DNA of 64,000 bases from the NCBI RefSeq assembly GCF_001005825.1, contig NZ_LBHV01000004.1, forward strand, positions 124,001 through 188,000, in the 5' to 3' direction. This document shows positions 23,621 through 41,673 of the stretch, one piece after another (the stretch's first letter is position 1; each line of letters opens with the position of its first letter). The notes below the pieces were generated by a model. The model was not told the DNA's origin. It saw only the letters and a program-made list of their open reading frames with translations, and made no database searches. Position numbers and translations under genes: made by a program. The stretch is from Rhizobium sp. LC145. Lineage in GTDB: Bacteria; Pseudomonadota; Alphaproteobacteria; Rhizobiales; Rhizobiaceae.

Positions 23621-25330
23621 TTAGAACAGAAAGTATCGCTGCGCCATCGGCAACACGGTGGCCGGTTCGCAGGTCAAGAGTTCACCATCGGCGCGCACCT
23701 CGTAGGTTTCGGGATCGACCTCCACATGCGGCGTCGCCGAATTGTGGATCATCGAGGCCTTGGAGATGCCACCGCGCACATTCTTCACCGCCACCAGCTT
23801 CTTGGCGACGCCGAGACGCTGCGCAAGCCCGGCATCCAGCGAAGCCTGCGAGACGAAGGTGACGGAGGAGTTCGTCCGGAGTTTGCCGTAGGCTGCGAAC
23901 ATCGGCCGATAATGCATCGGCTGCGGTGTCGGGATGGAGGCATTCGGATCGCCCATCGGGGCTGCAGCGATCGAGCCGCCGAGCAGCACCATTTCCGGCT
24001 TCACGCCGAAGAAGGCCGGGTTCCAGAGCACGAGGTCGGCGCGTTTTCCCACTTCGACCGAGCCGATCTCGTGGGAGACGCCGTGCGCGATCGCCGGATT
24101 GATCGTGTATTTGGCGATATAGCGGCGGACACGGAAATTGTCGTTGTCGCCGGTCTCTTCCTTCAACTGCCCGCGCTGCCGCTTCATCTTGTCGGCCGTC
24201 TGCCAGGTGCGAATCGCCACTTCGCCGACGCGGCCCATGGCCTGGCTGTCCGACGAGATGATCGAGAACGCGCCGATATCGTGCAGGATGTCTTCGGCCG
24301 CGATCGTTTCCTTGCGGATACGGCTTTCGGCGAATGCGATGTCCTCGGGGATCGACGGAGACAGGTGATGGCAGACCATCAGCATGTCGAGATGCTCGGC
24401 GAGCGTGTTGACCGTATAGGGCCGCGTCGGGTTGGTGGAGGACGGGATGACGTTCGGCTGCCCGCAGACCTTGATGATGTCCGGCGCATGGCCTCCGCCC
24501 GCCCCTTCCGTATGGAAGGCATGGATGGTGCGGCCCTTGATCGCCGCGACGGTATCCTCCACGAAGCCGCTCTCGTTCAGCGTGTCGGTGTGGATCATCA
24601 CCTGCACGTCGTACTGATCGGCGACGGTGAGGCAGTTGTCGATCGCGGCCGGCGTCGTGCCCCAATCCTCGTGCAGCTTGAGGCTGGAAGCGCCGGCGAG
24701 GATCATTTCTTCGATCGGCGCGGGAAGCGAGGCATTGCCCTTGCCGGCAAGGGCGAGATTCATCGGGAAGGCATCGAAGCTCTCGATCATCCGCTCGATA
24801 TGCCATGCGCCGGTGCAGGTGGTGGCAAGCGTGCCATGCGCCGGGCCCGAGCCCCCGCCGAGCATGGTCGTGACGCCGCTCATCAGCGCTTCCTCGATCT
24901 GCTGCGGGCAGATGAAGTGGATATGCGCATCCATGCCGCCGGCCGTCAGGATCTTGCCTTCGCCGGCAATCGCCTCCGTCGACGGCCCGACGATGATCGT
25001 CACGCCGGGCTGCGTATCCGGATTGCCCGCCTTGCCGATCGCATGGATGCGGCCGTTCTTCAGGCCGACATCGGCCTTGTAGATGCCGGAATGGTCGACG
25101 ATCACCGCGTTGGTGATGACGGTATCTACCGCCCCTTCCGCGCGCGTGGCCTGGCTCTGGCCCATGCCGTCGCGGATTACCTTGCCGCCGCCGAACTTCA
25201 CTTCCTCGCCATAGGTGGTGAAATCCTTCTCCACCTCGATGAAGAGCTCGGTATCGGCAAGCCGGACCTTGTCGCCCACGGTCGGGCCGAACATGCTGGC
25301 ATAGGCGGCGCGGGGCATCTTGTAGGGCAT
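23621..25330 (-). CDS. ureC: Urease alpha (catalytic) subunit UreC
   Basis: A 569-residue cytoplasmic enzyme carrying the dinickel centre that hydrolyses urea to ammonia and carbamate. Metal and active-site residues are His136 and His138 (GGMDAHIHF), carboxylated Lys218 ([10 protein letters not shown]), His247 (VMIHTDT), His273 ([14 protein letters not shown]), the flap catalytic histidine in MVCHHLSPS and Asp361 ([12 protein letters not shown]). The length is normal. It is separated from ureB by a 165-bp spacer with an inverted-repeat element, unlike the tight spacing between the other subunit genes. Confidence 0.97.
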
Positions 25331-28266: not shown

Positions 28267-28962
28267 TCATACGGTGAGATGCCGCCTTGCTTCCGGCATA
28301 TCCAGCGTCTCGGCCGGACCTTCGTGAACGATCTCACCGCGATCCATGATGTAGACCTGATCGGCAAGCTCCCGGCAGAAATCGAGATATTGTTCGACCA
28401 GCAGGATGGCCATGCCGGTCGAATCCCGCAGATAGCGGATCGCCCGGCCGATATCCTTGATAATCGAGGGCTGGATACCTTCGGTCGGCTCGTCCAGCAC
28501 CAGGATCTTCGGCCGCGTGACCATGGCGCGGCCGATCGCCAACTGCTGTTGCTGCCCCCCGGACAAGTCTCCGCCGCGACGGCCGAGCATGGATTTCAGC
28601 ACCGGGAACAGGTCGAATATCTCGTCCGGAACGAACCGCTCCTTGCGGGCAAGCGGCGCATAGCCGCTTTCGAGGTTTTCCTGGACGGTGAGCAGCGGGA
28701 AGATTTCCCGCCCCTGCGGCACATAGCCGATGCCGTGCTTGGCGCGCGCATAGGGAGCGAGACCGTTCAGCACCTCGCCCTGGAAGCTGATGACGCCGCC
28801 ACTCACCGCATGCTGGCCGGTAACGGCGCGGAGAAGAGAGCTCTTCCCCACGCCGTTCCGCCCCAGCACACAGGTGATCTTGCCCATCTCGGCGGTGATC
28901 GACACACCACGCAGCGCCTGCGCCGCGCCGTAATGGAGATTGACGTTGTTGACTGTCAGCAT
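28267..28962 (-). CDS. urtE: Urea ABC transporter ATP-binding protein UrtE
   Basis: A 231-residue ATPase of the LivF type. Walker A is GRNGVGKSSLLRAVTG, signature LSGGQQQQLAIGRAM, Walker B ILVLDEPTEGIQPS and H-loop LLVEQYLDF. The NLHYGAAQALRGVS opening and EIVHEGPAETL ending are typical of UrtE. The start at 28962 follows GGAGATCC; the open frame upstream runs into a palindromic repeat and is not coding. It is separated from urtD by 192 bp containing that repeat. Confidence 0.92.
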   Translation of the reverse strand: MLTVNNVNLHYGAAQALRGVSITAEMGKITCVLGRNGVGKSSLLRAVTGQHAVSGGVISFQGEVLNGLAPYARAKHGIGYVPQGREIFPLLTVQENLESGYAPLARKERFVPDEIFDLFPVLKSMLGRRGGDLSGGQQQQLAIGRAMVTRPKILVLDEPTEGIQPSIIKDIGRAIRYLRDSTGMAILLVEQYLDFCRELADQVYIMDRGEIVHEGPAETLDMPEARRHLTV

Positions 28963-28990
28963 AAGGATCTCCGCAGAGTCAGCGCCAAAT

Positions 28991-29124
28991 AACTCCCCCT
29001 CTGGCCTGCCGGCCATCTCCCCCACAAGGGGGGAAAAGACTCGTGGCACCTTGTTGCCTCAAGCGAAAGCGCCGAGCAGGGCGTTGAAGCCCCTCCCCCT
29101 TGTGGGGAGGGGTTGGGGAGGGGA
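28991..29124. repeat. Rhizobial mosaic palindromic repeat, copy 3 (reverse orientation)
   Basis: Read on the minus strand this is the same element as at 11944-12117: CCCCTCCCCAACCCC, the CTCCCCACAAGGGGGAG hairpin, a variable spacer, then CCCCCCTTGTGGGGGAGATG and GCCGGCAGGCCAGAGGGGG. It fills the urtD-urtE spacer and will be in the urt transcript in the same sense as copy 2 is in the pyrimidine-transporter transcript. Confidence 0.85.
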
Positions 29125-29154: not shown

Positions 29155-29916
29155 TCACCGCCCCAGATAATTCTCGATCACCTTCGGATCGTTCGAGACG
29201 AAATCGATCGAACCTTCCGCCAGCACCGAACCTTCCGCCAGACACGTCACCTTCACTCCAAGCTCACGGATGAAACCCATGTCATGCTCGACCACTACGA
29301 CAGAGCGCGTCTTGGCGATCTCCTTCAGGAGCACGGCCGTCTCCGCCGTTTCCGCATCCGTCATGCCCGCGACCGGCTCGTCCACCAGAAGGAGTTTCGG
29401 TTCCTGCGCCAGCAGCATGCCGATCTCCAGCCACTGCTTCTGGCCATGCGAAAGGTTTGCGGCCAGTTCGTCCTTCCGGTGCGTCATGCGGATCGTCTCG
29501 AGGATTTCCTCGATGCGCGCCTTGTCTTCCGGCGAGAGCTTGTAAAACAGCGTTGCGAAGACACCGCGCAAGCGGTTCAGCGCCAGCTCCAGATTGTCCC
29601 AGACCGTATGGCTTTCGAAGACTGTCGGCTTCTGAAACTTCCGGCCGATGCCGAGCTGGGCGATGTCGGCCTCGTCCTTTTTCGTAAGGTCGACGGTGTC
29701 TTCGAATAGCACTGTGCCGGTGTCGGGCCGCGTCTTGCCGGTGATGATGTCCATCATTGTCGTCTTGCCGGCCCCGTTCGGGCCGATGATGGCGCGAAGC
29801 TCACCCGGCTCCACCACGAAGGAGAGCGAATTCAGCGCCTTGAACCCGTCGAACGAGACGGAAACACCATCGAGGTAAAGCAGGCTCTTGGCTCTGGTTT
29901 CGGCAATCGTGTTCAT
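29155..29916 (-). CDS. urtD: Urea ABC transporter ATP-binding protein UrtD
   Basis: A 253-residue ATPase of the LivG type. Walker A is GPNGAGKTTMMDIITGK, signature ANLSHGQKQWLEIGMLL (the SHGQKQWLEI form is typical of UrtD), Walker B LLLVDEPVAGMTDAE and H-loop VVVEHDMGFI. The C-terminus ends with the urea/LivG-type VLAEGSIDFVSNDPKVIENYLGR. It works with UrtE to power urea import. It begins 4 bp after the urtC stop. Confidence 0.93.
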   Translation of the reverse strand: MNTIAETRAKSLLYLDGVSVSFDGFKALNSLSFVVEPGELRAIIGPNGAGKTTMMDIITGKTRPDTGTVLFEDTVDLTKKDEADIAQLGIGRKFQKPTVFESHTVWDNLELALNRLRGVFATLFYKLSPEDKARIEEILETIRMTHRKDELAANLSHGQKQWLEIGMLLAQEPKLLLVDEPVAGMTDAETAETAVLLKEIAKTRSVVVVEHDMGFIRELGVKVTCLAEGSVLAEGSIDFVSNDPKVIENYLGR

Positions 29917-29920
29917 CGTC

Positions 29921-31084
29921 TCACTCCGCTGCCTGTGCCATCGGGGTTTGGGCGTCCCTGCCCTTTTCCGCCTCGCGAGCGGCCTTCATGGCCTTGCGGG
30001 AGCTGAAGCCGTGTTGGATCGTCCCGACGATACCCTTCGGCAGGAAGAGCGTGACGGCGATGAAGAGGCCGCCCAGCGCGTAAAGCCAGAATTCCGGGAA
30101 GGCGCCGGTGAAGAAGCTTTTCCCGGAATTGACCAGAACCGCGCCGATGATCGGCCCGATCAGCGTGCCGCGCCCGCCGACCGCCGTCCACACCACCACT
30201 TCGATGGAGTTGGCAGGCGCGAATTCACCGGGGTTGATGATGCCGACCTGCGGCACGAAGAGCGCGCCGGCAATGCCGGCCATCATGGCGGAGACGACGA
30301 AGGTGAAGAGCTTGATATGCTCGACTCGGAAGCCGAGGAAGCGCACCCGGCTTTCGGCATCGCGCACGCCGACCAGCACCTTGCCGAACTTGGAGCGAAC
30401 AATGCCGGAGGCGATCAGCAGGCAGAGCGCCAGCATCACCGCCGACATGGCGAAGAGCACGGCGCGCGTGCCGTCCGCCTGGACCGAGAAGCCAAGGATA
30501 TCCTTGTAGTCCGTCAACCCGTTATTACCGCCGAAGCCCATGTCGTTGCGGAAGAAGGCGAGCATCAGCGCATAGGTCATCGCCTGGGTGATGATTGAGA
30601 GATAGACGCCGTTGACGCGGGAGCGGAAAGCGAACCAGCCGAACACGAAGGCGAGCAGGCCCGGCACGACAAGCACCATCAGCATGGCGAACCAGAACAT
30701 GTCGAACCCGTGCCAGAACCAGGGAAGCTCCTGCCAGTTGAGGAACACCATGAAATCCGGCAGTTCGGGATTGCCGTAGACGCCGCGGCTGCCGATCTGC
30801 CGCATCAGATACATGCCCATGGCATAGCCGCCGAGCGCGAAGAAGGCGCCGTGGCCGAGCGAAAGGATGCCGCAATAGCCCCAGACGAGATCGAGCGCCA
30901 GCGCCAGCAGCGCGTAGCAGAGATACTTGCCCATCAGCGCCATGGCATAGGTGGGGATATGGAAGGCGCTATCCGGTGGGGTGAGCAGGTTGAGCGCCGG
31001 CACGAGGATGGCAACGCCGAGCAATATGGCAATGGCGACGATGATCTTGCCGTCGAGCGCGCGCAGAATGAAGCCCGTAATCAT
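29921..31084 (-). CDS. urtC: Urea ABC transporter permease UrtC
   Basis: A 387-residue LivM-type permease with about ten membrane helices. LVWGYCGILSLGHGAFFALGGYAMGMYL is the typical permease opening, and RFLGFRVEHIKLFTFVVSAMMAGIAGALFVPQVG is the conserved C-terminal part. TAVGGRGTLIGPIIGAVLVN is the coupling region. It overlaps the urtB stop by four bases (ATGA) and precedes urtD closely, so the subunits are made from one message. Confidence 0.93.
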   Translation of the reverse strand: MITGFILRALDGKIIVAIAILLGVAILVPALNLLTPPDSAFHIPTYAMALMGKYLCYALLALALDLVWGYCGILSLGHGAFFALGGYAMGMYLMRQIGSRGVYGNPELPDFMVFLNWQELPWFWHGFDMFWFAMLMVLVVPGLLAFVFGWFAFRSRVNGVYLSIITQAMTYALMLAFFRNDMGFGGNNGLTDYKDILGFSVQADGTRAVLFAMSAVMLALCLLIASGIVRSKFGKVLVGVRDAESRVRFLGFRVEHIKLFTFVVSAMMAGIAGALFVPQVGIINPGEFAPANSIEVVVWTAVGGRGTLIGPIIGAVLVNSGKSFFTGAFPEFWLYALGGLFIAVTLFLPKGIVGTIQHGFSSRKAMKAAREAEKGRDAQTPMAQAAE

Positions 31085-32697
31085 GCTTCCACCGCCCTTC
31101 CCTTGAGCGCGAAGAGGCCGCGCGGACGTTTCTGGATGAAGAGGATGATGAGCACCAGCACGAGGATCTTGCCGAGTACCGCGCCAACCGAAGGTTCAAG
31201 GAACTTGTTGAGGATGCCGAGCGACATGGCGCCCACCAGCGTGCCCCAGAGATTGCCCACACCGCCGAAGACCACCACCATGAAACTGTCGATGATGTAG
31301 CTCTGGCCGAGGTTCGGCGAGACGTTGTCGATCTGGGAAAGCGCCACGCCCGCAATCCCTGCAATGCCGGAACCGAGCGCGAAGGTGAAGGCGTCGATCC
31401 AGGGCGTGCGGATGCCCATGGACGACGCCATGCGGCGGTTCTGGGTGACGGCGCGCATCTGAAGACCGAAAGCCGAGCGCTTCAGAAGCACCAGTAGCGC
31501 GAAAAAGATCGTCAGCGAGAAGACGATGATCCAGAGCCGGTTCCAGGTGACCGTCATGCCGCCCAAACCGAAGGAACCGGACATCCAGGAAGGATTGCCA
31601 ACTTCACGGTTGGTGGGGCCGAAGATCGAGCGGATCGCCTGTTGCAGGATCAGCGAGACGCCCCAGGTGGCGAGCAGGGTTTCGAGCGGCCGGCCGTAAA
31701 GGAAACGGATGACGCCGCGCTCCAGCACGAGACCGACGGCGCCGGTCACGATGAACGCGACGGGCAGCGCGATCGCCAGCGACCAGTCGAACAGGCCCGG
31801 CGCGTTGGCGCGGATCAGCTCCTGCACGACAAAGGTGGAATAGGCGCCGAGCATGACCATCTCGCCATGCGCCATGTTGATGATGCCCATCACGCCGAAG
31901 GTGATCGCAAGGCCGATCGCCGCAAGCAGCAGGACCGAGCCGAGCGACAGCCCATACCAGACGTTCTGCGCCATGTCCCACAGCGCCAGATCGCCTTCGA
32001 TCGAAGCGACGGCGGCGTCGATCTCCGTCTGCAGGCTGGCATCGGCCGAGCCATAGGCGGCGCGCAGGATGCCGATCGCGTCACGACCGCCATAGTTGCG
32101 GATGGTCTCTATCGCGGCGCGCTTCTCCTCGACGGAGCGATCGGAGGAGAGCAGCGAAACGGCGCGCGCCTCTTCCATCCGGGTCTTCACCTCCGCATCG
32201 GTTTCCTTGGCGAGCGCGGCTTCCACGAGTTCGAGGTTTTCCGGGCTCGGAGAGCGCAACACGGCATCGGCTGCCGAGAGCCGCACGGCGCGGTCGGGGC
32301 TGAGCAGAGTGAGACCGCCGAGGGCGGAGCGGATGACACGGCGGAGATTGTTATTGACGCGGATCTTGGTAACGGCAGCCTTCGGCGCGTCGCCCGCGCT
32401 TTCACCGGTGAGGGCATCGGTCAGCGCGACATTCGAACCGGCAGCCTTGGCGATGAAGACCGCCTTGTCGGACTTGCGGAAATAGAGATCGCCTTCGGCA
32501 AAGGCTTCGAGAGCGGAAACCACGCGCGGATCGCCGGTCGCAGCGATCTGGCTGATCAGTTCCTCGGCCCGATTGAAATTGGCGTCCGCCAGCTGATTGA
32601 ACAGCGGCTTCGGATCGGCACCCTGCGCGAAGGCGGGTGCGGCGAGGGCAGAAAGAATAAGAATTAGAAACGTTTGAAGAAGTTTTTTGGGGTTCAC
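31081..32697 (-). CDS. urtB: Urea ABC transporter permease UrtB with a large N-terminal exported domain
   Basis: A 538-residue LivH-type permease. Residues 1-25 are a signal-like segment (FLILILSALAAPAFAQ). Residues about 26-230 form a helical, HEAT-like exported domain (ALEAFAEGDLYFRKSDKAV and RAVRLSAADAVLRSP). The membrane part starts near YGLSLGSVLLLAAIGLAITFGVMGIINMAHGEM. Such N-terminal extensions occur in proteobacterial UrtB and are absent from ordinary LivH. The start codon appears to be GTG at 32697. It lies 171 bp after urtA, across a repeat-bearing spacer. Confidence 0.92.
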   Translation of the reverse strand: MNPKKLLQTFLILILSALAAPAFAQGADPKPLFNQLADANFNRAEELISQIAATGDPRVVSALEAFAEGDLYFRKSDKAVFIAKAAGSNVALTDALTGESAGDAPKAAVTKIRVNNNLRRVIRSALGGLTLLSPDRAVRLSAADAVLRSPSPENLELVEAALAKETDAEVKTRMEEARAVSLLSSDRSVEEKRAAIETIRNYGGRDAIGILRAAYGSADASLQTEIDAAVASIEGDLALWDMAQNVWYGLSLGSVLLLAAIGLAITFGVMGIINMAHGEMVMLGAYSTFVVQELIRANAPGLFDWSLAIALPVAFIVTGAVGLVLERGVIRFLYGRPLETLLATWGVSLILQQAIRSIFGPTNREVGNPSWMSGSFGLGGMTVTWNRLWIIVFSLTIFFALLVLLKRSAFGLQMRAVTQNRRMASSMGIRTPWIDAFTFALGSGIAGIAGVALSQIDNVSPNLGQSYIIDSFMVVVFGGVGNLWGTLVGAMSLGILNKFLEPSVGAVLGKILVLVLIILFIQKRPRGLFALKGRAVEA

Positions 32698-32868: not shown

Positions 32869-34158
32869 TCAGCTACCCTTGCCGCCGCATTTTCCCGTGG
32901 CGACGTTGAAGTTGCCGCACTCCATGGGCTTGCGCCAATCGGCGATCAGGTCCTTCGAGTCCGGCAGGTAATCGGACCATTCGTCGCCGACGACCGGCGG
33001 CGTTTCCTGGACGACTTCGAACTGGCCGTCCGCCTGGATTTCACCGATCAGCACCGGCTTGGTGATGTGGTGGTTCGGCATGACGGTGGAGGTGCCGCCC
33101 GAAAGGTTCGGAACGGAAACGCCGATGATCGAGTCAAGCACGGCATCCGTATCGGTGGTGCCGGCGGCTTCGACCGCCTTCACCCAGGCGTTGAAGCCGA
33201 TATAGGCTGCTTCCATCGGGTCATTGGTGACGCGCTTGTCGTTCTTGGTGAAGGCATGCCACTGTTCGATGAACTGGGCATTCGCCTCGCTTTCGACCGA
33301 CTGGAAATAGTTCCAGGCGGCGAGATGGCCGACGAGCGGGGCGGTATCGAGACCGGCAAGTTCCTCTTCGCCGACCGAGAAGGCGACGACCGGGATATCT
33401 TCAGCCTTTACGCCCTGGTTGGCCAGTTCCTTGTAGAAGGGAACGTTGGCATCGCCATTGATGGTGGAGACGACGGCGGTCTTCTTGCCGGCGGAGCCGA
33501 AGTTCTTGATGTCGGTCACGATCGTCTGCCAGTCGGAATGACCGAACGGCGTGTAGTTGATCATGATATCCTCTTCGGCGACGCCCTTGGACATCAGATA
33601 GGCCTTGAGGATCTTGTTGGTCGTCTGCGGATAGACGTAGTCGGTGCCGGCCAGCACCCAGCGCTCGACGCCCTCGGTCTCGGCAAGGTAATCGACCGCC
33701 GGAATGGCCTGCTGGTTCGGAGCGGCGCCGGTATAGAAGATGTTGCGCGAGGATTCCTCACCCTCGTACTGAACCGGATAGAAGAGGATCGAGTTCAGCT
33801 CCTCGAAGACCGGCAGCACGGACTTGCGCGACGAAGAGGTCCAGCAGCCGAAGACGGCGGCGACCTTGTCCTGGGAAATCAGCTGGCGGGCCTTTTCGGC
33901 AAACAGCGGCCAGTCGGAAGCCGGATCGACGACGACGGCCTCAAGCTTCTTGCCGAGTACGCCGCCCTTCTTGTTCTGCTCTTCGACGAGCATCAGCATG
34001 GCGTCTTTCAGCGTCGTCTCGGAAATCGCCATCGTGCCCGAAAGAGAATGCAGGACGCCGATCTTGATCGTGTCTTCCTGTGCGAATGCGCCATGGAAGG
34101 CGGTCGTGGACAGGGCGGCGGCGAGCAATGCGCCACCGAGCTTTGCCTTGAAATTCAT
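32869..34158 (-). CDS. urtA: Urea ABC transporter substrate-binding protein UrtA
   Basis: A 429-residue periplasmic protein. A signal peptide ends near AFHGAFAQEDTIK. The mature domain has IKIGVLHSLSGTMAISETTLKDA, VVVDPASDWPLFAEKARQLI, GCWTSSSRKSVLPVFEE and LFYPVQYEGEESS, diagnostic for UrtA rather than amino-acid binding proteins. It delivers urea to the UrtBC channel. The start at 34158 fits the signal peptide. A 16-bp perfect palindrome lies about 95 bp upstream. Confidence 0.95.
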   Translation of the reverse strand: MNFKAKLGGALLAAALSTTAFHGAFAQEDTIKIGVLHSLSGTMAISETTLKDAMLMLVEEQNKKGGVLGKKLEAVVVDPASDWPLFAEKARQLISQDKVAAVFGCWTSSSRKSVLPVFEELNSILFYPVQYEGEESSRNIFYTGAAPNQQAIPAVDYLAETEGVERWVLAGTDYVYPQTTNKILKAYLMSKGVAEEDIMINYTPFGHSDWQTIVTDIKNFGSAGKKTAVVSTINGDANVPFYKELANQGVKAEDIPVVAFSVGEEELAGLDTAPLVGHLAAWNYFQSVESEANAQFIEQWHAFTKNDKRVTNDPMEAAYIGFNAWVKAVEAAGTTDTDAVLDSIIGVSVPNLSGGTSTVMPNHHITKPVLIGEIQADGQFEVVQETPPVVGDEWSDYLPDSKDLIADWRKPMECGNFNVATGKCGGKGS

Positions 34159-34253
34159 TGGTTCGAACCCCTCTTCTTGTTCGTCGGCAACGGGCTCAAG
34201 CAGGTTTGGACCGTCGCTGCGAGAACTATCGGGTGCTGCAGCGCGAAACCACA

Positions 34254-34269
34254 TACGTCATATGACGTA
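34254..34269. promoter_or_regulatory. 16-bp perfect palindrome upstream of urtA
   Basis: TACGTCATATGACGTA is a perfect 16-bp palindrome in the 235-bp gap between urtA and the divergent monooxygenase-like gene. It is a plausible operator for a dimeric regulator of the urt-ure transcription unit; which protein binds it is unknown. Confidence 0.5.
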
Positions 34270-35244: not shown

Positions 35245-37143
35245 TCAGCCGTCGATGGTGAGCGTGACGCCGGACGGGCCGTATTCGACACTTGCCTTGT
35301 GGCCTTCGATCTCGACGGCGCCGAACGTGCCAGAAACAGAACTCGCCTTGATCAGCTCGATCTTCTCGCCCGCCTTCGGCGCATAATCTTCCGGCAGGTT
35401 GACGACCAATCGCCCGGCGAGCTTGGCCGAACCCTTGACGATCAGGTGCCCGGCCGTACCCTCGCCGAGGGTGACCGCCAGGCTGCCCTTGTCTTCCTGG
35501 CTGAAATCCCCATCGATCAGCAGAGCGTCAGACGCCGCGACCACGAGATTGCCGTTGCCGACCGAGAGAGAGCCCGTTCCGACAGCCGACGGAGATCCGG
35601 CGACCAGCGCTCCCTCTTCCACCCTGGTTTCACCGGCATAGGTATTGATTCCGGCGAGAGCAAGCGTGCCTTCACCGCGCTTCACTAGTCCGCCACGGCC
35701 GCCGATATCGTTTCGCCAGGTATCGAGCGCATTAAAGCCGCCTTTGGCCGCATCCATCGCGACCGTCACATCCTGATCGAACGCGCCATATCCATCAGCG
35801 GCGGCGAAAATATTGAGGCGACCGTATCCTTCCGCATCGTCAAGCAGCGGATAGCCGGAAGCGATCGCCGTCGTCCTCAGGACTTCGCGGCGCTGCTCGG
35901 CATCGAGATAGGGCAGACGGGTCTCGAGCAGCACTTCCGCCCCCTTCGGCACCCGGGCAGGCTGATCCACCGCATGGATCGGCTGGAAGCCATAGCTTAG
36001 GCGATCGCGCACATAGGCCTGGTTTGCATCATGCTCGGCGAAGCGATCCTCTTCGGGTGATGCCGAATGGGCCAGCACGAAGAGTTCGTCTGTATCCTGG
36101 ACGCCGGTCTTCGTGGCGAGCCAGGCTTGCGTTTGCGCATAGGCGTCGCGCTTCAGGTCCGCATTTCCCGGCTTGTTGAGATTGTACGCCACCTGTGCGG
36201 TCGCCAGCACCCGGCCGCCCATCACGTCGAGCGGCGAGTGCATGCCCGCCAGAATACGGCTGTCGCCCATTTCGGTGGCGCGGGCCAGCATCTCCTGGAA
36301 ACGCTGCGGCACCAGATAGGCCATGGCGAGCGCATCGCGCCAGCCTTCGGCCGTGTGCCCGCTCGGAAAGCCGCCATCCTCGGCGGGCTTGCCGCTCTTG
36401 GCCGGTTCCAGCGTCGGCAGCACCGCGACATGCTCGCTCCAGCGATAGGGACGCGCATACTTGAAATAGCGCTTGGCCGGCTCGGTGGATGCCTCCTCAC
36501 TTGCTGCCTTGATGAAATCGACCGCCAATCCCATGTCGGGATTGGCCTCCGTCTTGGCCTCCAGGTCCGCCTTGCTGCCGGCGCCGCGATTGTTGCCCTT
36601 GTCCTCATACTTCACGGTGATCGCGTCAGCAGCGACCTCGGTGATCGTCGTCGTCTGTTTGGACCCGGCCTTCCAGGCATCCGTCAGCGGACCGAGCCCA
36701 TCAACGATGCTGGCGTTCTTGCCCCGCCGGTCGTCGAGATAGACCGCAAGGTCCTGCTCGGCCATACGCACCCGCGTGACCTTCACCACATAAGCGATAT
36801 TGGCGTCGTGAACGGCCTGGTTGACGATTCGGCCATCGGTGGGGCTGAACGGAATGCCGTCCCAATCCGTCTTGGCGACCGCCGGGCAATCGCCATTCGC
36901 CGGAGCCTCGACGCCGGCATCCACGAAAGGCGTGCGCGGCGTCCATATTTCCAGGAAACCTGAGAGAAGATGTACCGCCGCATTGGTGTTTTCCGTCGAA
37001 AAACACGCATCGCCCCGCTTGTTGGTGGCGCCGGCCTCCGCATAAGGCAGCTTGCCGGCGGTCTCCGCTCCGGCCATTGAAGGCACGAGAGAAAGCAGCG
37101 TCACCAGAGCAACAGTGGAACGGAAGTGACCCAAAGCAGACAT
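35245..37143 (-). CDS. Secreted PAP2 (class A-type) acid phosphatase with a beta-helical autotransporter-like tail
   Basis: A 632-residue exported protein. The signal peptide (VTLLSLVPSMAGA) is cleaved near residue 26. PAP2 active-site motifs are KRYFKYARP (224-232), PSGHT (260-264) and SRILAGMHSPLDVMGG (295-310). The C-terminal part has an autotransporter-associated repeat (GGLVKRGEGTLALAGINTYAGETRVEEGALVAG) followed by beta-strand-rich sequence, ending VTLTIDG. No C-terminal outer-membrane barrel is present, so it lacks the expected autotransporter translocator. It probably releases phosphate outside the cytoplasm; the substrate is unknown. Confidence 0.85.
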   Translation of the reverse strand: MSALGHFRSTVALVTLLSLVPSMAGAETAGKLPYAEAGATNKRGDACFSTENTNAAVHLLSGFLEIWTPRTPFVDAGVEAPANGDCPAVAKTDWDGIPFSPTDGRIVNQAVHDANIAYVVKVTRVRMAEQDLAVYLDDRRGKNASIVDGLGPLTDAWKAGSKQTTTITEVAADAITVKYEDKGNNRGAGSKADLEAKTEANPDMGLAVDFIKAASEEASTEPAKRYFKYARPYRWSEHVAVLPTLEPAKSGKPAEDGGFPSGHTAEGWRDALAMAYLVPQRFQEMLARATEMGDSRILAGMHSPLDVMGGRVLATAQVAYNLNKPGNADLKRDAYAQTQAWLATKTGVQDTDELFVLAHSASPEEDRFAEHDANQAYVRDRLSYGFQPIHAVDQPARVPKGAEVLLETRLPYLDAEQRREVLRTTAIASGYPLLDDAEGYGRLNIFAAADGYGAFDQDVTVAMDAAKGGFNALDTWRNDIGGRGGLVKRGEGTLALAGINTYAGETRVEEGALVAGSPSAVGTGSLSVGNGNLVVAASDALLIDGDFSQEDKGSLAVTLGEGTAGHLIVKGSAKLAGRLVVNLPEDYAPKAGEKIELIKASSVSGTFGAVEIEGHKASVEYGPSGVTLTIDG

Positions 37144-37340: not shown

Positions 37341-40300
37341 ATGGCAGCGCGGCAACGCATCATTCCCGTCCGGCGAGAATACAATCGGTGGGTCGCCAAC
37401 CAGACGCTGGAAGACTATGCGCTGCGCTTTACGGCCAAGAGCGCCCGGCGTTTTTCCTCTGAGCGTATTTCGCAGACGGCGATTGGCGCGATCTCCTTCC
37501 TTGCACTTGAAGCGATCGGCGGGGCGATCACGCTCTCCTACGGCACGACGAACGCCTTCTTCGCCATCGTCGCCGCTGCCGTCGTCATGCTGTTGGTCGG
37601 CCTGCCGATCAGCCGCTACGCGATCCGCCACGGGGTGGATATCGATCTTCTGACGCGCGGCGCGAGCTTCGGCTACATCGGCTCCACCGTCACCTCGCTC
37701 ATCTATGCGGGCTTCACCTTCATGCTGTTTGCGATCGAAGCATCGATCATGACCGGCGCGCTCTACCTCGCCTTCGGCATTCCGCCCTGGATCGGCTACA
37801 TGATCAGCGCCGTGGTGGTGATCCCGCTCGTTATCTACGGCGTGCAGATGATCTCGCGCTTCCAGCTCATCACCCAGCCTTTCTGGATCGTGCTGAACAT
37901 CCTGCCCTTTATCTTCATCGCTTTCCTCGATTGGGAAAAATTCGATCTCTGGCGGGCCTTCGCCGGCATCAACCATTCCAATGCCGAGGTCGGCGGCGCC
38001 GCACCCTTCGATCTCTTCGAATTCGGCGCGGCATCCGCCGTTATCCTCGCGCTGATGCCGCAGATCGGCGAGCAGGTGGACTTCCTCCGCTTCCTGCCGC
38101 CGGAAGGATTGCGCAAGTTCCGCCACAGGATAGCGGTATTTCTTGCCGGCTCCGGCTGGGTCGTGGTCGGCGTTCCGAAGCTGCTGGCCGGCTCCTTCCT
38201 GGCGGTGCTGACGCTTTCGACGGGCGTGCCGGTGCGCGAAGCCGCCGATCCTGCGCATATGTATCTCGCCGCTTTCGGCTACATGATCCCCAACGAGACG
38301 GCGGCACTCCTGCTGATGGCCGCCTTCGTGGCGGTCTCGCAGCTCAAGATCAACGTGATGAACGCCTATGCGGGCTCGCTCGCCTGGTCTAACTTCTTCT
38401 CGCGCCTGACCCATAGCCATCCGGGCCGTGTGGTCTGGCTGGTCTTCAACGTGGCGATCGCCCTGCTTTTGATGGAACTCGGCATATACCGGCTGCTGGA
38501 GGCGACGCTCGGCATCTTCTCCATCATCGCCATGTCTTGGCTCTGCACCATTTCGGCGGACCTGTTCATCAACAAGAAGCTCGGGCTCTCGCCGCCCGGC
38601 GTCGAATTCAAGCGCGCCCATCTTTATGATCTCAATCCGGTGGGGCTCGGCGCCATGTTCGGCTCGGCGGGCGTGGCGCTTGCCGCCCATTTCGGGCTGT
38701 TCGGCAGCCTCATGGCGTCGATGTCCACCTATGTCACGCTGATCGCCTTCGTTATTTCACCGGCGATCGCCTTCGCCACTCGCGGAAAATTCTATCTGGC
38801 CCGGAAGCCGCGACAAAGCTGGAAGAGTCTTGGTTCGATCACCTGCTCCATCTGCGAACATCCTTTCGAGCCGGAGGACATGGCCTGGTGCCCGGCCTAT
38901 GCCGCACCGATCTGCTCGCTCTGCTGCTCGCTCGACAGCCGCTGCCATGACATGTGCAAGCCACAGGCGAGAATGAATGCGCAGGTGGGCGCGGTGGCGC
39001 GCGCGGTGCTTCCCGAAACGATCGTAGAGCGGCTACGCTCGCGGCTCGGCCGCTATTCCATCACCGCCGCTGTCGCGATCTCTCTGATCGGCGCGATCCT
39101 CGCCATGATTGCTTACCAGATAGGTCAGGCCTATCCCGCCAATGCTGAAATCGTCTACGGCGCCATTCTGATCGTCTTCTTCGTCTTCGCGCTGATCGCC
39201 GGCATCGTCTCGTGGTTCTATGTGCTGGCCCATGACAGCCGCATGGTGGCCGAGGAGGAATCCTCCCGCCAGAACACGCTGCTTCTCAAGGAAATATCGG
39301 CCCACAAGAAGACGGACGCGGCGCTTCAGGACGCCAAGGAGACCGCCGAGGCCGCCAACCGCGCCAAGAGCCGCTATGTCGTGGGGCTTTCCCACGAACT
39401 GCGCACGCCGCTGAATGCCGTGCTCGGCTATGCGCAGATCCTCGAGCGCGACGAGACGATACCTCCTCCCCGGCATTCCGCGATCAAGGTGATCAAGCGC
39501 TCCGCCGACCATCTTTCCGGGCTGATCGACGGACTTCTCGATATTTCCAAGATCGAGGCCGGCCGGCTGCAGGTCTATTCGAACGAGATCAACATCCAGG
39601 ATTTCCTCGACCAGATCGTCGAGATGTTCTCCCTGCAGGCTCATGCCAAGGGACTTGCCTTCGAGCACGAACGCGCCCGCTCCCTCCCCCAATATGTCCG
39701 CACCGACGAGAAGCGGCTGCGCCAGATCCTCGTCAACCTGCTGTCGAACGCGATCAAGTTCACCGACCGGGGCAAGGTGCGTTTCGATGTCGCCTATCGC
39801 AGCCAGGTGGCGACCTTCACGGTTTCCGATACCGGCCGGGGCATAGCCGAGAAGGATCTCGGCCGCATCTACGAGCCCTTCCAGCGCGGCGAGGCCGACA
39901 GCATTAAGCCCATGCCGGGTCTCGGCCTCGGGCTCACCATCACCCAGCTTCTCACCAATACGCTCGGCGGCGAGATCAAGGTGGAAAGCGTGAAGGACGA
40001 AGGCTCCACCTTCCGGGTGCGGCTGATGCTGTCCGCCGTCGACCGTCCCAATACCGCGCCGGCGGCGGAAAAGAAGATCGTTTCCTATACGGGCCCGCGC
40101 CGCACCATCGTCGTCGTGGACGATAACGAGGACCACCGCGACCTGATGCGGGAAGTGCTGGTGCCGATGGATTTCGTGGTGCTGACTGCAAACAGCGGCC
40201 CGGACTGCCTGACCCTGATCGAGGGCGTGAAGCCGGACCTCTTCCTGATCGACATCCTAATGCCCGGCATGAACGGCTGGCAATTGCTCGCCAAGCTCAG

Positions 40301-40745
40301 GGAAATCGGCCAGACGGCCCCAATCGTCATGCTGTCCGCCAATATCAATGACGGGGTCGCGGCCAATCTCGGAGACGAGGGCCCGAACGACACCATCCCG
40401 AAGCCCGTCGATATCCGCCGCTTGAGCGACCGGTTGGCGGCGCATCTCGGCCTCGAATGGGTCTATGAAGGCGATCCCGCCTTCTCCCCCCCGCCGATGG
40501 CGAAGGCGCCGGTCAGGAGCCCGGGAAAAAACCATGTGCAGGACCTTTTGCGCCTTGGCGAAATAGGCTACGTCCGCGGCATCGAAACCAAGCTCGCCGA
40601 TATCGCCCGGATGGAGGAAAACCGGCCATTCGCCGAAGAGCTCGGCACCTATCTGCAAGCTTTCGACATGGCCGGATACATGACTTTCCTCAATCGCTTC
40701 GGCGAAGACGAGCGCTTCGGCGAAGAAAGGGCCATCGATGGCTGA
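37341..40745 (+). CDS. Hybrid histidine kinase with an NCS1-like transporter N-terminus and cysteine-rich linker
   Basis: A 1,134-residue membrane protein. Residues about 40-480 form a roughly 12-helix region resembling NCS1 nucleobase/cytosine-type permeases. Residues 502-539 hold eight cysteines (CSIC, WC, ICSLCC, RC, MC), a possible zinc-binding knuckle. Two more helices follow (about 575-595 and 605-630). HisKA has SHELRTPLNAVLGY with phospho-acceptor His685. HATPase has NLLSNAIKFTD, DTGRGIAEKD and GLGLGLTI. The REC domain has DD at 927-928 and acceptor Asp971. A helical tail lies at about 1065-1125. Its stop overlaps the start of the partner regulator. It probably senses a solute through the transporter fold. 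Confidence 0.9.
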   Translation: MAARQRIIPVRREYNRWVANQTLEDYALRFTAKSARRFSSERISQTAIGAISFLALEAIGGAITLSYGTTNAFFAIVAAAVVMLLVGLPISRYAIRHGVDIDLLTRGASFGYIGSTVTSLIYAGFTFMLFAIEASIMTGALYLAFGIPPWIGYMISAVVVIPLVIYGVQMISRFQLITQPFWIVLNILPFIFIAFLDWEKFDLWRAFAGINHSNAEVGGAAPFDLFEFGAASAVILALMPQIGEQVDFLRFLPPEGLRKFRHRIAVFLAGSGWVVVGVPKLLAGSFLAVLTLSTGVPVREAADPAHMYLAAFGYMIPNETAALLLMAAFVAVSQLKINVMNAYAGSLAWSNFFSRLTHSHPGRVVWLVFNVAIALLLMELGIYRLLEATLGIFSIIAMSWLCTISADLFINKKLGLSPPGVEFKRAHLYDLNPVGLGAMFGSAGVALAAHFGLFGSLMASMSTYVTLIAFVISPAIAFATRGKFYLARKPRQSWKSLGSITCSICEHPFEPEDMAWCPAYAAPICSLCCSLDSRCHDMCKPQARMNAQVGAVARAVLPETIVERLRSRLGRYSITAAVAISLIGAILAMIAYQIGQAYPANAEIVYGAILIVFFVFALIAGIVSWFYVLAHDSRMVAEEESSRQNTLLLKEISAHKKTDAALQDAKETAEAANRAKSRYVVGLSHELRTPLNAVLGYAQILERDETIPPPRHSAIKVIKRSADHLSGLIDGLLDISKIEAGRLQVYSNEINIQDFLDQIVEMFSLQAHAKGLAFEHERARSLPQYVRTDEKRLRQILVNLLSNAIKFTDRGKVRFDVAYRSQVATFTVSDTGRGIAEKDLGRIYEPFQRGEADSIKPMPGLGLGLTITQLLTNTLGGEIKVESVKDEGSTFRVRLMLSAVDRPNTAPAAEKKIVSYTGPRRTIVVVDDNEDHRDLMREVLVPMDFVVLTANSGPDCLTLIEGVKPDLFLIDILMPGMNGWQLLAKLREIGQTAPIVMLSANINDGVAANLGDEGPNDTIPKPVDIRRLSDRLAAHLGLEWVYEGDPAFSPPPMAKAPVRSPGKNHVQDLLRLGEIGYVRGIETKLADIARMEENRPFAEELGTYLQAFDMAGYMTFLNRFGEDERFGEERAIDG

Positions 40746-41673
40746 GACGGCCCTGCCCCGCGATATCGTGCTCCTGGTGGACGACAGTCCCGAGGCGCTC
40801 GGCTTCCTGACCGAAGCGCTCGAGCAATCCGGCTTTTCGGTGCTGATCGCCACCTCCGGCCAGTCGGCGCTCAATATCGTAGAGCGCATCACACCGGACC
40901 TCATCCTGCTCGATGCGGTCATGCCGAACATGGACGGTTTCGCCACCTGCCGGATGCTGAAGACCAATGCGGCCGTGGCGCAAGTCCCGGTGATCTTCAT
41001 GACCGGGCTGACGGAGACCGAGCACGTGGTGCATGCGCTCGATTCCGGCGGCGTCGATTACCTCACCAAGCCGATCAACATCGATGAGCTGCGCGCCCGC
41101 ATCCGGGTGCATCTTTCCAATGCCCGCTCCGCCCAGAGCGCCCGCGTGGCGCTCGATGCCGCCGGCCGGCACCTGCTGGCCGTGAGAGGCGACGGCGGCC
41201 TCCATTGGTCGACGCCGCAGGCAACGCGGCTTATCAGGACCGCCACCGGCACCGACGACGGACTCGATCTCGCCGCCCGCCATATCGCGGGCTGGCTTGC
41301 GGAGCGCGACAAGCCCGGCTTTGCCCGCGACGCCACGTTCTCCCTGCCCCGGAGCGGCCAGACGAACCTGCAGTTCGCCTATCTCGGCGCGATCGGCGCC
41401 GATGAACATCTCTTCCGGCTGACCGCGGCCAGCAACCGCGCCGATGACGAGGTGCTGCGCCAGCATTTTTCCCTCACCCCGCGTGAGTCGGAAGTGCTGC
41501 AATGGATCGCCAAGGGCAAGTCGAATCGGGACATCGGCGATATCCTGGGCCTGTCCGCCCGCACGGTGAACAAGCATCTCGAACAGATCTACGTGAAGCT
41601 CGGCGTCGAGAACCGGGCCTCAGCCGCCGTCAAGGCGGCTCATGTCCTCTACGGTGAGGAGCGGTTGGCATAG
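40738..41673 (+). CDS. LuxR-type response regulator coupled to the transporter-kinase
   Basis: A 311-residue regulator. An N-terminal receiver domain (LLVDDSPEALGFLTEAL, acceptor aspartate in LILLDAVMPNMDG, lysine in YLTKPINIDEL) is followed by a middle region of about 120 residues resembling the linker or sensor segment of this group. The C-terminal LuxR HTH has LTPRESEVLQWIAKGKSNRDIGDIL and SARTVNKHLEQIYVKLGVENR. It overlaps the kinase stop by 8 bp, so it is almost certainly the cognate regulator. Target genes are unknown; the urt palindrome is one candidate site. Confidence 0.92.
   Translation: MAETALPRDIVLLVDDSPEALGFLTEALEQSGFSVLIATSGQSALNIVERITPDLILLDAVMPNMDGFATCRMLKTNAAVAQVPVIFMTGLTETEHVVHALDSGGVDYLTKPINIDELRARIRVHLSNARSAQSARVALDAAGRHLLAVRGDGGLHWSTPQATRLIRTATGTDDGLDLAARHIAGWLAERDKPGFARDATFSLPRSGQTNLQFAYLGAIGADEHLFRLTAASNRADDEVLRQHFSLTPRESEVLQWIAKGKSNRDIGDILGLSARTVNKHLEQIYVKLGVENRASAAVKAAHVLYGEERLA

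Follow-up and report, generated by a model that had tools for sequence, protein, structure and literature searches.

What does a histidine kinase with a transporter-like N-terminal region sense, and which genes does it control? The question is raised by a gene pair encoded within a 64,000-nucleotide stretch of the Rhizobium sp. LC145 genome (contig NZ_LBHV01000004.1, positions 124,001 to 188,000), hereafter referred to as the window. Transporter-fused kinases are already known; CbrA and CrbS are SSS-type examples, and CrbS pairs with a LuxR-type regulator. The protein described here resembles both in joining a transporter fold to a kinase, and CrbS in its LuxR-type partner, but its sensor is NCS1-like rather than SSS-type. 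What is new is this NCS1-like variant, the linker of which is unusual and the proposed ligand class of which can be tested. The reading that we moderately favor is that of a transporter-derived receptor kinase for urea, and ancestrally for small amides, that would be dedicated to the local uptake operon by way of a palindromic DNA site.

The coordinates of the relevant features are provided in Table 1. The open reading frames and Pfam domains agree with an earlier note on this DNA, which had described a hybrid kinase overlapping the gene for a LuxR-type regulator by 8 bp. The kinase contains HisKA (residues 676-741), HATPase_c (788-897), and Response_reg (923-1032) domains, and the regulator contains Response_reg (11-123) and GerE (245-300) domains. 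The residues characteristic of a hybrid histidine kinase are all in place, namely the N box at 799 and, where the note had put them, His685 and Asp971. No Hpt domain is reported by Pfam in the kinase-regulator pair.

Table 1 Positions within the window of the kinase-regulator pair, the candidate operator, and neighboring urea genes
Feature	Position	Strand	Basis
Hybrid histidine kinase, 1134 aa	37341..40745	+	ORF list, Pfam domains, residue check
NCS1-like (LeuT-fold) sensor domain, residues 22-482	37404..38786	+	AlphaFold model; best matches CodB/Mhp1
Eight-cysteine segment, residues 502-539, probably metal-binding	38844..38957	+	8/8 Cys in 206/206 homologues; weak FYVE/C1/RING/ZZ-like matches
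Two long helices, residues 568-649, Cys segment to HisKA	39042..39287	+	Model helices; hydropathy peaks; putative membrane hairpin
HisKA, phospho-acceptor His685 at 39393-39395	39366..39563	+	Pfam, residue check
HATPase_c of kinase	39702..40031	+	Pfam
Kinase receiver domain, Asp971 at 40251-40253	40107..40436	+	Pfam, residue check
LuxR-type response regulator, 311 aa	40738..41673	+	ORF list, Pfam domains
Palindrome TACGTCATATGACGTA, candidate operator	34254..34269		~95 bp upstream of likely urtA ATG at 34158
urtA (binding protein of the urea ABC transporter), as the longest ORF; start probably at 34158	32869..34254	-	NCBIfam TIGR03407, 560 bits (cut-off 493)
urtB	31081..32697	-	NCBIfam TIGR03409, above cut-off
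urtC	29921..31084	-	Operon order and tblastn collinearity
urtD	29155..29916	-	Operon order and tblastn collinearity
urtE	28267..29049	-	Operon order and tblastn collinearity
ureC, urease alpha subunit	23621..25330	-	NCBIfam TIGR01792, above cut-off

The earlier note had assigned residues ~40-480 to an NCS1-like permease and had proposed structure prediction followed by a search of transporter families. At the level of the fold the assignment stands, although it is not borne out by a Pfam sequence match. An AlphaFold model, with a pLDDT of 86, predicts an NCS1-like fold for the sensor; CodB and Mhp1 are its top structural matches with both Foldseek and VIA-align, and NCS1 chains outrank SSS chains, so an SSS-type sensor is not indicated. 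This transporter-like domain is joined to HisKA and HATPase in one chain. With respect to sequence, no Pfam family is matched by kinase residues 1-650 at an E-value of 1, and residues 1-638 gave just two chance-level DUF matches (E-values of 5.1 and 7.3). A PF02133 match is likewise absent in the window protein and in two kinase-less homologues, L266 and L267. Remoter standalone relatives match PF02133 with E-values of 0.0081 to 1.8e-7, with only L067 over the cut-off, and a profile-profile comparison links the domain to the NCS1 family (PF02133) with an E-value of 5.5e-37. A profile built from the kinase rows alone found no NCS1 structure by sequence. The source names of the homologues are generic, but some read "purine-cytosine permease-like protein," indicating that annotation pipelines had already seen the domain. 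The standalone NCS1 permease L067 (660-2300, minus strand) carries a C-terminal CxxC...CxxC tail, and thus a permease with a Cys segment exists without a kinase.

In the window, the kinase-regulator pair is divergent from urtABCDE, an operon unmentioned in the earlier note, with ureC farther along. UrtA and UrtB, the two members compared with NCBIfam, pass its cut-offs. Between urtA and the kinase are two small plus-strand reading frames and a gene for a 632-residue protein (35245-37143, minus strand). Part of that protein resembles a PhoC acid phosphatase, with an NCBIfam score short of the cut-off, and its C-terminal region appears autotransporter-like by eye; a relative upstream of the kinase was detected in two of the 80 named loci. 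A separate observation concerns positions 24889-25177 (plus strand), antisense to ureC, which match Rfam RF02514 (5' ureB sRNA) with 113.7 bits and may merely reflect conserved urease coding sequence.

The gene-neighbor survey that the earlier note had proposed reveals a conserved neighborhood, with urea or amide genes in nearly all of the loci examined. The named loci are 80 of 560; the protein candidates number at least 8000, of which 120 were among the matches listed. The same divergent arrangement is observed in the annotated Rhizobium sp. Q54, Rhizobium sp. T1473 (where ~220 bp separate the divergent kinase and urt genes), and S. meliloti pSymB, and wherever a named locus includes 10 kb of upstream sequence, urtA is there and divergent in 74 of 75 cases. 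Across the order, 117 of 121 kinases are divergent from urtA or from a second urtA-like gene. The true urtA, 74-92% identical, is faced by 69 (median spacing 313 bp), and the second gene, 36-41% identical to the window urtA, by 48 (median spacing 391 bp). Neither type is faced by four: the kinases of G427 and G259 are situated at the ends of their contigs, and G147 and G368 have, respectively, the second urtA-like gene and urtA on another contig. This count left out the LC145 genome itself, G026, nine shorter receiver-less kinases, most fragments, and weak standalone matches; it kept one fragment, G392. Where the kinase faces the second operon, a true urtA occurs elsewhere in at least 35 of the 48 genomes, a lower bound since the urtA matches entered were a selection of those found. 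The kinase is dispensable for urt, being absent in 11 of 49 urtA-bearing relatives.

The loci of the second type have the formamidase gene FmdA within 10 kb in 42 of the 47 fetched, and annotated ones also carry FmdB and an aliphatic amidase. In excerpts of two published accounts, a second urt-like cluster that adjoins formamidase and AmiE genes in Bradyrhizobium japonicum was argued in 2010 to encode an amide rather than a urea carrier (PMC3098086), and Pseudomonas veronii, which has the cluster amiE-fmdA-fmdB-urtABCDE and lacks amiC/amiR there, was reported in 2026 to grow on acetamide and formamide (PMC13209695); those excerpts name no kinase of this type.

Outside the named set, in loci picked by sequence rather than context yet unevenly drawn, a urea or amide gene lies within 10 kb of the kinase (46-65% identical) in 71 of 74. 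LivJ is a neighbor of the pair at 70 named loci out of 77 and occurs in none of these 74; the urea/amide linkage therefore outlasts ordinary gene-order conservation. Kinases with no such gene nearby are L249, L250, L255, and the named locus L092. These four, together with L035 (urtA 10.7 kb off) and the named L108 (just 0.8 kb of upstream sequence), make up the loci classed as "none." Urease genes are the neighbors in L234, L236, L243, and L245, although L236 and L245 are not purely of this kind, as urt genes also appear there at the limit of the fetched DNA. In Novosphingobium (L271), ureDABCEFGJ is followed on the same strand by the kinase and regulator. By Pfam, the receiver is absent in all six kinases of 878-902 residues, and all six adjoin FmdA and AmiS (FmdA was confirmed with NCBIfam in the three tested). 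These receiver-less kinases (L071, L072, L073, L074, L076, and L077) have the same sensor and form one clade; in L071, L072, and L076, the next gene encodes a receiver-plus-histidine-kinase (CckA-like) protein in place of the LuxR regulator. The two nearest kinase-less relatives among those found, 41-42% identical, directly precede genes of these kinds: in Acinetobacter the cluster that follows is ureEFGJDABC, and in Tsukamurella it consists of FmdB-like and FmdA genes. Linkage by itself does not discriminate between urea and other small amides.

A blind inverted-repeat scan of the divergent intergenic regions revealed a palindrome common to these promoters, TACGTCA-NN-TGACGTA, which the earlier note did not mention. 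The window copy, TACGTCATATGACGTA, occurs there once. After deduplication, 13 of the 16 intergenic regions at urt and 27 of the 43 at second-urt operons contain an exact TACG-N8-CGTA; the highest counts for any dyad with arms of four bases in ten shuffles were 4 and 9, respectively. The 5.88-Mb genome contains one exact site, that upstream of urtA, and none with one mismatch; at two mismatches the sites are at background (nine places, with 13 matches in all for a control pattern). Among 60 relatives, 31 places match with at most one mismatch, as compared to 18 for the control. Twenty-three of the 31 are no more than 150 bp from a urtA match, seven lie elsewhere, and one, in G008, is beside a contig-end urtA fragment (L104). 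A promoter-region site with no more than two mismatches is found at 81 of 92 urt and 25 of 47 second-urt loci, at none of the six receiver-less or four urease-linked loci, and at one of the six "none" loci; elsewhere in the 3.13 Mb of fetched loci there are four.

The LuxR regulator would be the protein that binds this palindrome. It is unlikely, but conceivable, that the palindrome belongs to some other regulator, with the kinase pair controlling urt through a different site or controlling other genes. Indeed, among loci with the kinase, 22 of the 47 second-urt and all four urease-linked ones lack a copy with up to two mismatches, the latter four still having a LuxR regulator, and these absences argue against a simple one-site rule. 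Arguing for the LuxR partner are the single exact site in the genome, the occurrence of the palindrome at two different urt-like operons whose shared neighbor is the kinase-regulator pair, and its absence from all six loci where a homologue of that partner was not found.

In Mhp1, Ser312 and Thr313 are presumably the Na2 ligands, and Trp117 occupies what we take to be the substrate-stacking position. The pocket was read from an HMMER alignment with Mhp1 against the ligands given in the CodB paper, the excerpts of which name Asn318 and Gln121 as Mhp1 substrate ligands, Thr278 and Thr279 on TM8 as binding sodium in CodB, and the place of CodB Trp108 as predominantly Trp in the family (PMC9379551). 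Mhp1 Asn318 pairs with Asn341, Gln121 with Glu133, Ser312/Thr313 with Lys336/Ile337, and Trp117 with Leu129. Accordingly, the sensor is like CodB and Mhp1 in its fold, in a common FG motif, and in Asn341, but differs in having Lys/Ile at the places of the Na2 hydroxyls on TM8, Glu at that of Gln121, Leu or Phe at that of Trp117, and a fused kinase. Asn341, Glu133, Lys336, and Ile337 are invariant in all 206 homologues compared (distinct, at least 44% identical, sensor covered). The Lys/Ile pair is also present in the kinase-less L266 and L267 and thus does not separate carrier from receptor; likewise, some NCS1 members use protons, according to excerpts of PMC13390362, so that the lost hydroxyls do not exclude membership in the family.

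That the domain still transports its substrate, with flux rather than occupancy being sensed, seems quite unlikely. The whole NCS1 core is kept, including the invariant Glu133 and Asn341, and the kinase-less relatives look like carriers; set against this are the Lys336/Ile337 pair, although L266 and L267 share it, and the dedicated ABC importer next door.

Position 129 is Leu in 133 and Phe in 73 of the 206 homologues. Of the rows in the tree, 53 are amide-linked kinases, from second-urt or FmdA/AmiS loci, with L246 counted as second-urt type from its adjacent operon; all of these but L166 have Phe, and so do the seven urease- or urt-linked rows of other lineages. Leu marks the two urt-linked alphaproteobacterial groups, in all 16 rows of the window's group and all seven of the other, to which L255 and L271, loci without a true urt link, also belong. 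A tree joining both Leu groups was better than the free tree, and Leu129 thus probably arose by one change. In the tree, a quick one with long branches and a root resting on a distant outgroup, amide-linked kinases surround the window's group, a placement suggesting that sensing of amides preceded that of urea. A wider proposal is offered tentatively: these proteins may constitute a large and as yet undescribed class of receptor kinases, dedicated to urea and small amides, whose transporter lineage lacks the usual sodium site; the change from Phe to Leu at position 129 of the pocket may then have helped an ancestral amide sensor become a urea sensor once the urt operon lay opposite.

The segment that follows the sensor contains the eight cysteines claimed in the earlier note, at positions 502, 505, 517, 525, 528, 529, 535, and 539, and all eight are retained in each of the 206 homologues. 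It is probably metal-binding; its matches to FYVE-, C1-, RING-, and ZZ-like domains are weak, those of the RING, FYVE, and ZZ types being two-zinc cross-braces. Between it and HisKA the model displays helices at residues 568-597 and 599-649, unmentioned in the earlier note, with hydropathy peaks at 582 and 613, and the pair may form a membrane hairpin. Given the invariant cysteines, the segment might itself be the main sensor, of metal or redox state, with the NCS1 domain as a scaffold or a surface for binding the Urt permease; this is improbable, for the kinase-less L267 and L266 keep the urea/amide linkage with four and one aligned Cys, respectively.

The earlier note had proposed a transceptor coupling a solute to nitrogen gene control. 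That interpretation is supported in part, but its choice of nucleobases, hydantoins, or allantoin as ligands now appears highly improbable: although the fold is NCS1-like, other characterized bacterial NCS1 carriers take N-heterocycles (excerpts of PMC13390362), and a Phe at position 129 could still stack on a ring, the conserved neighbors are urea or amide genes in 71 of the 74 other loci, the Trp117 place is Leu or Phe throughout, and MetT provides, in the same excerpts, an example of a family member with an acyclic substrate.

On the urea-receptor reading, the ancestor of the sensor would be a transporter with the NCS1 fold that carried urea or short-chain amides. In Rhizobium sp. LC145, urea would most likely bind in the old substrate pocket, near Leu129, Glu133, and Asn341, and the change in shape would travel through a cytoplasmic Cys segment and the two-helix hairpin to the HisKA dimer. 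His685 would be phosphorylated, Asp971 would join in or gate the relay, and the LuxR regulator, phosphorylated in turn, would bind TACGTCA-NN-TGACGTA upstream of urtA and switch the urea uptake operon, most likely on. By the same logic, relatives beside formamidase operons would sense amides of the formamide/acetamide type.

Among known systems, Ks-Amt5 likewise employs a kinase-fused transporter domain for sensing a small nitrogen compound, but in excerpts of its description the domain is Amt and the ligand is ammonium (PMC5764959). The AmiC/AmiR system is similar in providing amide-responsive control of amidase genes and differs in that AmiC senses by a domain of the periplasmic-binding-protein type and AmiR is an RNA-binding antiterminator (excerpts of PMC13209695). 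The top matches of a keyword search of the open-access literature, with subscription journals outside its scope, contained no description of an NCS1-type kinase or of a urea- or amide-sensing kinase of this kind. For urt and formamidase operons, the kinase family offers candidates for receptor, regulator, and operator together, which is of interest given the absence of amiC/amiR beside the P. veronii cluster (excerpts of PMC13209695). The transporter-to-receptor change can also be followed, given that standalone relatives exist and that the specificity residue is testable.

Among the named carriers of the family are rhizobia, Methylobacterium, Methylosinus, Paracoccus, and Novosphingobium, and a homologue is present in 340 Klebsiella plasmid records. 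In the one Klebsiella record examined (L268), the operon opposite the homologue is a second urt-like one that includes a formamidase of the AmiE/AmiF type. The kinase-less proteins of L266 (11938-13632) and L267 (11950-13554), annotated as hypothetical and situated beside formamidase or urease genes, are candidates for new urea or amide carriers.
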